This document shows, piece after piece, positions 52,212 through 56,729 of a stretch of DNA of 56,885 nucleotides. This DNA is from Bacteroidota bacterium (GTDB lineage Bacteria > Bacteroidota > Bacteroidia > Cytophagales > Cyclobacteriaceae): assembly GCA_027592755.1 (NCBI GenBank), contig JAQCLE010000014.1, positions 1 through 56,885 of the forward strand, read 5' to 3'. Positions within the stretch are counted from its first letter, which is position 1. Every line of letters begins with the position of its first letter. A program made the position numbers and the translations under genes. Below the pieces are notes generated by a model. It did not search any database. It was not told where the DNA came from and worked only from the letters and a program-made list of their open reading frames with translations.

Positions 52212-52610
52212 TTATCTAAAAACAAAATACCTGCTCAGCAAATAATTGTAGCACACTGCAACCAATACAGCGGTAATCACTTTTGAAATAATATATTGAA
52301 GATTGGCTATTTCAGTAAATAAGTATACACCTGAACTGTTAAGTACTACACTCCCTGATGCTACCAAGAAATATCGGAAACCCTGGTGTCCTATCTTGCT
52401 TTCCTTAGAAACGAAAACCCAGTAACGGCCAAGTAGGAAAGCTGTCAATGCACCGAAAACAGCTCCGCTAATTGTTGAAAACATATACCAAAGTCCGGCA
52501 AGTTCAGTAAGGGCAATGAGGGCTATGAAATCAACTCCTGTAGCTAATGTAGCCACAAGGTTGTATCTCAAGAAGGAAACAAAAGGCGTTGGTTTTTCTG
52601 GGGTTTGCAT
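52212..52610 (-). CDS. GtrA family membrane protein
   Basis: 132 residues with four predicted membrane helices (about 12-32, 40-60, 78-95, 103-122) and the GtrA marks: FLRYNLVATLATGVDF at the start and FLLGRYWVF in the middle. GtrA-like proteins help move or assemble lipid-linked sugars. Here it ends the spt-SDR-ino1-pgpA operon and overlaps pgpA by one base, so a role in moving an inositol- or sugar-linked lipid is a plausible inference. The next downstream DNA is the plus-strand transporter relic. Confidence 0.85.
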   Translation of the reverse strand: MQTPEKPTPFVSFLRYNLVATLATGVDFIALIALTELAGLWYMFSTISGAVFGALTAFLLGRYWVFVSKESKIGHQGFRYFLVASGSVVLNSSGVYLFTEIANLQYIISKVITAVLVAVCYNYLLSRYFVFR

Positions 52611-53089
52611 TACGGGAAAAATGGCAACCTGATGATCACCTGGAGGACTAAATTAGCATAAATCCCGGCCAGCACATCATCGAGCATCACTCCCCAGCCT
52701 CCTTTTATCTCTTCTAGTTTCCTAATTCCCAGTGGCTTTGCAATATCAAAAAATCTAAAGAGTGCAAACGCAATTAGCCAATTGGTCCAATTTGGGGGAA
52801 TCCAAAGGATGGCGATCCACATGCCAACTATTTCATCAATGACTACCCTTGATGGGTCAGATCCCCAAGCAGGCTCAACTTTATCGGTGACATAAACCCC
52901 CACGAAATTGAAGATCAGGGTAACTACAACCAGCGGAATGAAATAGTGATCAGGAAAGTAATTGGCAGGCACAAAATGTTGCCATACAGCCAGCAATGCA
53001 AGGCCCATTACCGCTCCAGCTGTCCCAGGTGCAAACGGAGAATAACCCGCACCAAATCCTGCTGCGATAAACCTATAAATCCCGAGCAT
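52610..53089 (-). CDS. pgpA: PgpA-type phosphatidylglycerophosphatase
   Basis: 159 residues, membrane-bound. SPFAPGTAGAVMGL near 17, the catalytic VIDEIVGMW (near 85) and RFFDIAKPLG with GGWGVMLDDVLAGI (near 115-140) are all diagnostic for PgpA. It dephosphorylates phosphatidylglycerophosphate. In an ino1 operon it may instead act on phosphatidylinositol phosphate, as has been described for the Bacteroides inositol-lipid cluster. It lies 8 bases after ino1 and overlaps gtrA by one base. Confidence 0.9.
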   Translation of the reverse strand: MLGIYRFIAAGFGAGYSPFAPGTAGAVMGLALLAVWQHFVPANYFPDHYFIPLVVVTLIFNFVGVYVTDKVEPAWGSDPSRVVIDEIVGMWIAILWIPPNWTNWLIAFALFRFFDIAKPLGIRKLEEIKGGWGVMLDDVLAGIYANLVLQVIIRLPFFP

Positions 53090-53097
53090 TTACCTTC

Positions 53098-54441: not shown

Positions 54442-55443
54442 TTAAATCCATTTTTCTTTTTTGTACCATGCTACCGTTTCGTTAACTGCCGTTTGGAGAT
54501 CATATTTAGGCTGGAAATCAACATCACTAAAAAACACCTCCATATCACACACCCAGTTTTTACTGGTCAATTCAGCCATTTTTTCTGAATTCAATGCTGG
54601 GACTTTTCCAAATAGACCCATAATGCTTTCCTGAACGTAGGCAACAATTGAAACCAACATCACCGGTACCTTAATCTTAATTGTCTTCTTATTCATGGCC
54701 AATTTTATTGCTGTTACAAATTCTTTAATCAAGTACCGTTTGCCATCACTTATAAAATAAGTCTTACCAGTCTCCTTCGATCCCATAGCAGCAAGGATAC
54801 CGTCAACGAGGTCTTTCACATAAATAAATGACAGGTTTTGTTCGTCCGTTCCGATGTATAGTTCCAATCTCTTATTGATCAAATCAAAAAGGGTAAACAA
54901 TTCAGTATCTCTAGGCCCAAAGACAGCACAAGGTCTCAAGATCAAATAGGGGAAATCTTTAGTTGAATTCAGGAACCGCTCGGCTGCCAATTTGCTTTCT
55001 CCATAAGCAGTTACCGGACAGGGTTCCTGGTCAATATTTATTGGATCTAGGTCATTATTTCCTGGACCTGCTGCGGCCAGACTGCTAATAAACACAAATT
55101 TCTTACTGACTAATTGTGTAATCATCAAAGCATCCCCAAGTGTCTTAGTAATCCCTTCGTTGACCTGAAAAAAATCCGAGTTCCTGGATGCCTTTGTAAT
55201 TCCGGCATTATGGATGACATAATCGAAAATGCCATGCTCCAATTTTAAGGTTTTTAATTCATTGACAAGATCTCCTTGATGGTTAAGACTGAGTTCCAGG
55301 AAGTTAATCCTGTTGTCCTGAAGATATCTGCGATCACTTGTTTTTCTGAGGTTCACAAAAACTTCAAAATTTCTTTCAAGAGCCTTTTCAACTAAAAATC
55401 CACCAATAAATCCACTGGCACCGGTAATTAATAATTTCTTCAT
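54442..55443 (-). CDS. NAD-dependent epimerase/dehydratase family protein, candidate ceramide-pathway reductase
   Basis: 333 residues of the extended SDR fold. The cofactor motif ITGASGFIGGFLVE is at about 6-19, VIHNAGITK near 88 and SSLAAAGP near 120. The catalytic YGESK is near 147, followed by LRPCAVFGPRD. The C-terminal part (VAWYKKEKW) is like sugar epimerases. Linked to spt in other bacteria, proteins of this type (CerR in Caulobacter) reduce the keto group in ceramide synthesis. That role is inferred from context only, and a sugar-nucleotide role is the alternative. It lies 62 bases after spt and 18 before ino1. Confidence 0.8.
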   Translation of the reverse strand: MKKLLITGASGFIGGFLVEKALERNFEVFVNLRKTSDRRYLQDNRINFLELSLNHQGDLVNELKTLKLEHGIFDYVIHNAGITKASRNSDFFQVNEGITKTLGDALMITQLVSKKFVFISSLAAAGPGNNDLDPINIDQEPCPVTAYGESKLAAERFLNSTKDFPYLILRPCAVFGPRDTELFTLFDLINKRLELYIGTDEQNLSFIYVKDLVDGILAAMGSKETGKTYFISDGKRYLIKEFVTAIKLAMNKKTIKIKVPVMLVSIVAYVQESIMGLFGKVPALNSEKMAELTSKNWVCDMEVFFSDVDFQPKYDLQTAVNETVAWYKKEKWI

Positions 55444-55505
55444 GGATGCTATAACCCGTGCTGTACCGGTGAATTTAAAAGTCGATATGAAGTTTGGTGA
55501 ACAGA

Positions 55506-56729
55506 TTAACCCATCCGTCCATTTAGTGATACTTCAACAGGCTCCATTGGGAAACCAAATAACTTTCTTGCCTTATCTATCTTATCAATTGCAAAGTCAA
55601 TTTGTTCTTTGGTATGCGTGGCCATCAGAGAGAACCTGATCAGTGAAGAGTCGCTCTTAACTGCGGGAGATATTACTGGATTTACAAAGACCCCTTCATC
55701 AAGCAAGAACCGTGTCACCTGGAATGTTTTCAAATCATCCCTGATATAGATTGGAATGATTGGCGATTCTGCGGCTCCAATGTCAAAATCCATACTTCTG
55801 AGGGTATTCATCGTATAGCGGGCATTTTCCCAAAGTCTGTTAATGCGCTCGGGTTCTGTTTTTATGATTTCCAGTGCGGCCAATGCGCTGGCCGCAGACG
55901 CCGGTGGAATACTGGCACTGAAAATTAATGACCGGGCATGGTGTTTCAAATATTCAATCATCTCCCAGTCTGCCGCAACAAATCCGCCTAATGATGCCAG
56001 TGATTTACTAAATGTACCGACTATGAAATCAACATCATCAGTAAGTCCGAAATGTGAAGCCGTACCAGCACCTTTTTCACCCAGAACACCAATTGCATGA
56101 GCATCATCTACCACTATGTTGGCATTGTATTTCTTTGCGAGATCAACAAGAACTGGAAGATTAACGATATCCCCTTCCATGCTGAAAATGCCATCAACAA
56201 CTATCATTTTTACACTTTCAGAATCAATATTGGCCAATTGACGCTCAAGCGAGCCCATGTCATTGTGCCGGAATTTTAATACCCTTGAAAGTGAGAGGCG
56301 GCTGCCGTCTATGATTGACGCGTGATCAAGCTCATCAATTAAAATGGTGTCATTTCTTCCAGTCATGGTAGCAATAACACCTAAATTGGCCTGGAAGCCT
56401 GTACTGAAAACAAGTGCTGCCTCCTTTTGGCAGAAATCTGCCAATTGTTCCTCTAATTTTATATGTAAATCCAGTGTACCATTTAAAAACCGGGAACCTG
56501 CACAACCAGTTCCATACTTTTCTAACGCTTGTCTTGCAGCTTCTTTTACTTTTGGATGAATCGTTAAGCCCAGGTAACTGTTTGAACCGAACATCAAAAC
56601 TTCCTTACCGTCCATGAAGACCTTAGTGTCTTGATCGGATTGTATTTCCCGGAAATATGGATAAATTCCGGCCTTTCGTGTTTCGATTGCCCTAGTATAG
56701 CTGGCAGCTCTCGCTTTGAGTCGATTCAT
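55506..56729 (-). CDS. spt: Serine palmitoyltransferase (alpha-oxoamine synthase family)
   Basis: 407 residues from ATG 56729; a longer start at 56792 adds a non-family N-terminus. It is a PLP enzyme of the alpha-oxoamine synthase group. [14 protein letters not shown] near 46, [13 protein letters not shown] near 75, [12 protein letters not shown] near 205 and PLP-lysine Lys242 in [11 protein letters not shown]. In Bacteroidota the member with this start (YFREIQS) is the serine palmitoyltransferase that begins sphingolipid synthesis. KBL and BioF are alternatives in the same family, but neither glycine-cleavage nor biotin genes are nearby, and the SDR-ino1-pgpA-gtrA neighbours favour lipid synthesis. 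Confidence 0.82.

Follow-up and report, generated by a model that had tools for sequence, protein, structure and literature searches.

A serine palmitoyltransferase-inositol gene unit in a Cyclobacteriaceae bacterium, predicted to serve inositol phosphoceramide synthesis and part of a longer gene run in other Bacteroidota

Analysis of the window, the entire 56,885-nucleotide contig JAQCLE010000014.1 (C14) of a Bacteroidota bacterium of the family Cyclobacteriaceae (GCA_027592755.1), showed five minus-strand open reading frames packed together near one end. In the order in which they are read, these encode a 407-aa serine palmitoyltransferase (SPT; 55506..56729), a 333-aa extended short-chain dehydrogenase/reductase (SDR; 54442..55443) that is a candidate 3-ketosphinganine or keto-dihydroceramide reductase, a 441-aa inositol-3-phosphate synthase (Ino1 or MIPS; 53098..54423), a 159-aa PgpA-family protein predicted to be a phosphatidylinositol-phosphate (PIP) phosphatase (52610..53089), and a 132-aa GtrA-family small membrane protein that may move phosphatidylinositol (PI) (52212..52610). 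The original prediction had drawn this layout from the sequence alone, the intergenic gaps being 62, 18, and 8 bases and the PgpA and GtrA genes overlapping by 1 base; the frames were found exactly so, and Pfam and NCBIfam scans confirmed all five family assignments. The grouping exceeds chance, as identical neighbors recur across many genomes. Only 156 bases separate spt from the contig end upstream of it, which truncates the unit on its 5′ side. The SPT frame stays open beyond the ATG at 56729, up to a TTG at 56792, but the ATG is supported as the start by a same-genus genome (G291), whose SPT begins after nearly identical upstream bases. Scans for promoters and terminators stayed near the shuffled level, with 9 promoter-like sites against 11.6 expected and 7 terminator-like sites against 4.2 expected (standard deviation, 1.8).

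The SPT scored 679.4 bits against NF047600, the NCBIfam equivalog model for Bacteroidetes-type SPT, passing its curated cut-off of 640, and its top PDB matches were the serine palmitoyltransferases 8guh and 3a2b (529 bits). Three SPT-like paralogues in the same genome reached 340, 282, and 195 on this model; they are a glycine C-acetyltransferase (above its own cut-off), a cysteate-type enzyme, and a BioF-like enzyme. In SulA, the cysteate enzyme, a lysine is described as replacing the active-site alanine of SPT 30 residues after the pyridoxal phosphate lysine (PMC9304779). Alanine occupies this position in the window's SPT and in 12 of 12 other SPTs examined, and lysine does so in 16 of 16 cysteate-type paralogues. 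The possibility that the window's enzyme is instead a KBL or BioF was ruled out by the NCBIfam scores of the SPT and its paralogues: it scores as neither and has the serine-type alanine. Contig C177 of the same genome encodes a cysteate-type acyltransferase (L003/L019; 68% identity to L213) with the diagnostic lysine, and because of this the organism may make sulfonolipids besides sphingolipids.

The SDR matched PF01370 and begins straight at its Rossmann motif. Its cofactor and catalytic motifs are intact; GxSGFxG and YGxSK were conserved in 10 of 10 aligned homologues, and Ser-Ser was also retained. In a tree of 72 SDRs built by a quick method, with several long branches among the nonclade sequences, the window's SDR lay within a clade of 49 that was split from 23 other SDRs with a Shimodaira-Hasegawa-like approximate likelihood ratio test (SH-aLRT) support of 98. 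This clade holds 31 sequences from sphingolipid loci (at the L126 locus, the acyltransferase is the only other pathway gene shown) and 18 from Bacteroidales that were picked from the best-80 SDR loci described below; the 23 others are those recovered by tblastn from 28 supplied loci, the remaining 5 being lost. Gene neighborhoods were compared in 291 genomes of the organism's order, 24 of which carry a Bacteroidetes-type SPT at E ≤1e-115. Among the 23 besides the window's genome, a tandem-GNAT acyltransferase adjoins SPT in all 23 (28 to 56% identity to the G203 protein, G203 itself being one of the 23), and 21 have the SDR next to SPT, the acyltransferase, or both, the misses being G145, where the contig ends, and G244. 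The SDR accompanies spt and the acyltransferase both with and without inositol genes. As its clade occurs beside these two enzymes, the protein does not appear to be an ordinary sugar-nucleotide epimerase, and the grouping with such epimerases that would have spoken against the original prediction was not seen, the protein standing apart from the order's other SDRs in the tree. It is best described as a candidate CerR-like sphingoid reductase, on the strength of a clade shared with Bacteroidales orthologues and of its linkage to SPT. Elsewhere in the genome, a paralogue of the acyltransferase adjoins a classical SDR (L098, contig C113), and a similar classical SDR follows SPT-SDR-acyltransferase in another genome (L069, G312); this enzyme might act in the pathway as an additional reductase.

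In the inositol half, Ino1 matched PF07994 and PF01658, and its top PDB match was the inositol-3-phosphate synthase 7nwr (568 bits), which we take to be the structure of BT_1526 of Bacteroides thetaiotaomicron. The PgpA-family protein matched PF04608 (149 bits), and no other PgpA gene was found in the genome. Four CDP-alcohol phosphotransferases are encoded: a PssA-like one (by eye), a PIP-synthase-like one, and two that are fused to an NTP-transferase-like half. PgsA was not recognized among the three scanned with NCBIfam (best score, 34 bits; cut-off, 109) or in the fourth, judged by eye. The PgpA-family protein therefore has no evident phosphatidylglycerophosphate (PGP) substrate, which favors the predicted role of PIP phosphatase. 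The two fusion proteins (L013:790-2067 on C109 and L014:1252-2481 on C73) show a weak likeness to archaeal bifunctional inositol-phosphate enzymes. GtrA matched PF04138 (73 bits), and its position matches that of BT_1524. In the BT1524 mutant of Sartorio et al., inositol phosphoceramide (IPC) was reported to go down and PI to go up in total membranes, with no rise of PI in vesicles (PMC8791184). A role of GtrA in helping to move PI across the membrane would fit this result.

The five genes are insufficient for an inositol sphingolipid, because PIP synthase, IPC synthase, and the N-acyltransferase sit on other contigs. Contig C71 carries PIP synthase, then DUF4833, then a fatty-acid hydroxylase. 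The PIP synthase has the motif DX2DGX2AR...GX3DX3D given by Heaver et al. (PMC9246714), and its best NCBIfam match is NF052561, the BT_1523 model. Contig C123 (4,150 bases) carries a PAP2 gene, the predicted IPC synthase, divergent from the acyltransferase gene. The PAP2 protein has the motifs PSLHS and HHYxxD, and the only PDB sequences that it matched at E ≤0.001 were two AUR1 IPC synthases. A Chryseolinea homologue of the acyltransferase has a predicted tandem GNAT fold (mean pLDDT, 88.0; top PDB match, 2wpw, E 1.7e-14). Bacterial ceramide synthase is of the GNAT type, and the tandem-GNAT acyltransferase is a candidate for this enzyme (bCerS). With PAP2 and the acyltransferase on C123, and PIP synthase, DUF4833, and the hydroxylase on C71, each predicted step is accounted for: every enzyme predicted for IPC is encoded in the genome.

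The arrangement in G291 suggests how C123 and the window fit together. There, one contig carries PAP2 (reverse), the acyltransferase, SPT, and SDR, and a second carries the end of SDR followed by INO1, PgpA, GtrA, and isocitrate dehydrogenase. At both facing ends, the C123 tail and the head of C14, the sequence is similar to the spacer between the acyltransferase gene and spt in G291 (alignment scores of 53 and 58, compared to maxima of 30 and 33 over 500 doublet shuffles each). The acyltransferase gene very probably lies just upstream of spt, and C123 probably joins the window's end, in which case the real unit would start with the acyltransferase.

Further analysis of relatives showed that the five genes belong to a longer run. 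For the survey, an SDR-alignment scan of named genomes was made and pathway proteins were mapped onto the best 80 of 425 confirmed loci; seven genomes from a 395-genome phylum sample were added for having SPT and Ino1 close together. Among the best 80 loci, 20 have SPT, although L129 contributes only an SPT fragment, situated at the edge of the locus roughly 10 kb away from its SDR; Ino1 is present in 9, all of them with SPT. Most of the other loci, chiefly from Bacteroidales, show the SDR alone within the locus DNA examined. A complete collinear run, SPT-bCerS-SDR-INO1-PgpA-GtrA-DUF5686-PIPS-DUF4833-FAH-PAP2 (PIPS, PIP synthase; FAH, fatty-acid hydroxylase), was found in eight genomes, namely Pontibacter ummariensis, Chryseolinea lacunae, Pedobacter ghigonis, Rufibacter psychrotolerans, Pedobacter ureilyticus, Pedobacter jeongneungensis, G561, and G406. 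In G203 the run is present without the hydroxylase. Other forms lack, by tblastn at E 1e-5, GtrA and DUF4833 (L243) or SDR and PgpA (L244, L245, L247, and L248), INO1 and DUF4833 are missing in L203, and rearranged forms occur in one Flavobacteriales and one Saprospiraceae assembly (L134 and L131). The joining of spt and inositol genes in one operon, singled out in the original prediction as a feature of this DNA, is thus real, but it is not peculiar to the window and belongs to a conserved run that reaches 11 genes in length. The window has only part of the unit, which relatives have in full, and the genome resembles a divided form of the run, with C123 and C14 as one piece and C71 as the other.

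Taken together, the five genes most probably form the front and middle of a route to IPC (phosphoinositol dihydroceramide), a reading of gene content and linkage in which we place high confidence. In this route, SPT would join serine and an acyl thioester to give 3-ketosphinganine, bCerS (encoded on C123 and, by synteny, just upstream of spt) would attach the second chain, and the SDR would reduce the 3-keto group, either before or after N-acylation. PIP synthase would act on CDP-diacylglycerol, the PgpA-family enzyme would take off the phosphate to give PI, GtrA would assist PI to the outer face of the inner membrane, and the AUR1-like PAP2 enzyme would transfer phosphoinositol to ceramide. 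The hydroxylase would hydroxylate a chain, and DUF4833 and, in relatives, the outer-membrane-type DUF5686 may serve transport. The gene content and order, the families and motifs, and the cross-genome linkage were directly observed; we infer from them the reactions in this organism, the order of acylation and reduction, the roles of GtrA, DUF4833, and DUF5686, and the joining of C123 to the window's end. The view of the five genes as an inositol sphingolipid unit with GtrA as a possible mover thus fits the evidence, except that the unit as found depends on enzymes encoded off the contig.

This is a known pathway, known from Bacteroides, in a new arrangement, a single locus. In B. thetaiotaomicron, BT_1526-BT_1522 encode MIPS, a PgpA-type PIP phosphatase, GtrA, PIP synthase, and IPC synthase, and knockouts are reported to have established this operon as making PI and IPC (PMC9246714, PMC8791184). 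The window's ino1, PgpA-type phosphatase, and GtrA genes stand in the same order as BT_1526-BT_1524, and PIP synthase and AUR1-like PAP2 proteins of the same families are encoded in its genome. However, these last two lie on other contigs here (PIP synthase being inside the run in relatives), the window's inositol genes follow spt and the SDR gene, whereas the B. thetaiotaomicron SPT (BT_0870) lies elsewhere, and the run in relatives also includes bCerS, DUF5686, DUF4833, and the hydroxylase. In Caulobacter, the ceramide genes spt, bcerS, and cerR specify an SPT, an acyltransferase, and a reductase of the NAD(P) type that act together (PMC11087976); in the order sample, the three genes lie side by side. 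Caulobacter CerR is described as periplasmic (PMC11087976), unlike the window's SDR with its N-terminal Rossmann motif, and the two are likened by role, not by sequence. For the same chemical step in Bacteroidetes, BT_0972 has been proposed as a 3-ketosphinganine reductase, found with yeast and human KDSR queries and the testing of seven partial homologues (PMC9278070). The window's gene differs in being an extended, epimerase-type SDR. The predicted product class is chemically known in a free-living member of the Bacteroidetes, as Sphingobacterium spiritivorum makes ceramide phosphoryl-myo-inositol (Naka 2003, as cited in PMC9246714); according to Heaver et al., homologues of their cluster are absent or highly infrequent in Sphingobacterium (PMC9246714). 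A literature search, whose coverage left out most subscription journals and preprints, found no description of an spt-ino1 operon or of non-gut inositol sphingolipid genes.

Several observations weigh against an IPC route. The PIP synthase scored 342.8 bits on NF052561, under the curated cut-off of 350, and the PAP2 protein scored 293.2 bits on NF052609, the model for BT_1522-type phosphoinositol dihydroceramide synthase, compared to a cut-off of 480. Exact end overlap between C123 and either end of the window was not found, and the C123 and window ends total 324 bases compared to 186 in the G291 spacer. Two members each are missing from the run in 5 of the 14 run-bearing genomes examined, and Heaver et al. 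report that deletion of the GtrA gene made no change visible by thin-layer chromatography (PMC9246714). In support of the route, in the phylum sample, counted by hand from two lists (Ino1 at E ≤1e-60 and SPT at E ≤1e-115), 60 of the 395 genomes have Ino1, 170 have SPT, and 55 have both compared to 25.8 expected if the two were independent, although these counts come from related genomes and are not themselves independent. Both gene positions were listed for 53 of the 55, and the SPT-Ino1 distance is 2.4 kb or less in 8 of these (the window's genome and seven others). On the opposing side, 25 of the 291 genomes in the order sample match Ino1, 19 after six weak matches (E 3e-6 to 7e-4) were discarded, and 15 of the 19 are without SPT. 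The four with SPT are G000, G096, G168, and G203; SPT and Ino1 lie in one cluster in three of them, and in G168 they are on separate contigs with a stop inside ino1.

These distributions bear on the possibility that two functions merely share a transcript, SPT and the SDR making ceramide lipids with other head groups and Ino1 and PgpA making PI, or inositol in a soluble or capsular form, without any of it ever reaching ceramide. The 15 inositol clusters without SPT agree with this, as do the two fusion proteins, which could use inositol phosphate, and the occurrence of spt-bCerS-SDR without nearby ino1 in most SPT-bearing genomes of the order. We nevertheless regard it as unlikely, since the AUR1-like PAP2 gene adjoins the acyltransferase gene in this genome and lies just upstream of spt in G291, and since the 11-gene run unites PAP2, PIP synthase, and SPT. 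A role for the PgpA-family protein as an ordinary phosphatidylglycerophosphatase that fell into the operon by chance is quite improbable. In favor of it, the protein matches PF04608 and PRK11068 (88 bits, under the PRK11068 cut-off of 226), and a true PgpA function is suggested by Heaver et al. for the Chlorobium homologues (PMC9246714). The lack of a recognized PgsA speaks against PGP as its substrate, and the neighbors of the gene match those of BT_1525, the loss of which is reported to accumulate PIP-DAG (PMC9246714); the PGP phosphatase role was set aside and retained as a weak rival. Finally, the SDR could be a sugar-nucleotide epimerase or dehydratase in a unit that makes a glycosylated lipid head group, and its best general matches are indeed epimerase-like (HpnA, 81 bits; GalE, 60 bits; and GalE-like PDB entries). 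These HpnA- and GalE-type NCBIfam scores are all far under the cut-offs, and a separate clade that tracks spt and the acyltransferase with or without inositol genes leaves this explanation very little room; the SDR was rejected as an epimerase on both grounds.

The inositol clusters of the SPT-less genomes also raise the question of the acceptor. All 15 genomes carry the cysteate-type (sulfonolipid) enzyme, and, as a further point against a simple link to ceramide, an AUR1-like PAP2 gene is still inside the ino1 locus in 10 of the 15 (L055 and L057-L065, from G195, G191, G261, G060, G208, G258, G273, G221, G223, and G213). PAP2 therefore need not act on SPT-made ceramide. It is conceivable, though on balance doubtful, that in these relatives the cluster puts phosphoinositol on a different acceptor, for example a capnine-derived or hydroxy-acyl lipid; as the window's organism encodes both condensing enzymes, it would then make an undescribed phosphoinositol lipid besides IPC. 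This question could be answered directly by lipidomics.

Inositol sphingolipids are membrane lipids most familiar from fungi and plants and from a few bacteria of the gut, and the bacterial genes were established in gut Bacteroides, in which spt is separate from the inositol operon. The single-locus form in other Bacteroidota tells which genes belong together. Where both CerR and a KDSR have been proposed, it also points to a single SDR family as the phylum's sphingoid reductase, and it ties DUF4833, DUF5686, and GtrA to lipid handling or export. Cultured species that bear the run would allow the complete pathway to be deleted or transferred as a single block.

Some further features of these loci were apparent. 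DUF4833 (L015:9027-9587 and homologues) is a small all-beta protein with a signal-like N terminus by eye, and its gene comes after that of PIP synthase in most of the inositol-lipid loci examined, including SPT-less ones. A model of the Chryseolinea protein (mean pLDDT, 86.9; mostly beta) gave no Foldseek match at E <0.001 and no VIA-align match at Z ≥5, and a literature word search on DUF4833 found no paper. Locus L203 (JADCRZ010000008.1) is titled Williamsia sp., an actinobacterium, yet it holds a Bacteroidota-type sphingolipid/inositol run, and its SDR groups with those of Pedobacter and Chryseolinea in the tree; this assembly is probably mislabeled or mixed. In the window, an amidohydrolase frame and two short frames (50263-52162, plus strand) lie between gtrA and isocitrate dehydrogenase, unlike in G291, where isocitrate dehydrogenase directly follows gtrA. 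The first of the two short frames matches the SLC12 transporter model PF03522, and the segment may be an insertion that carries a degraded transporter gene.

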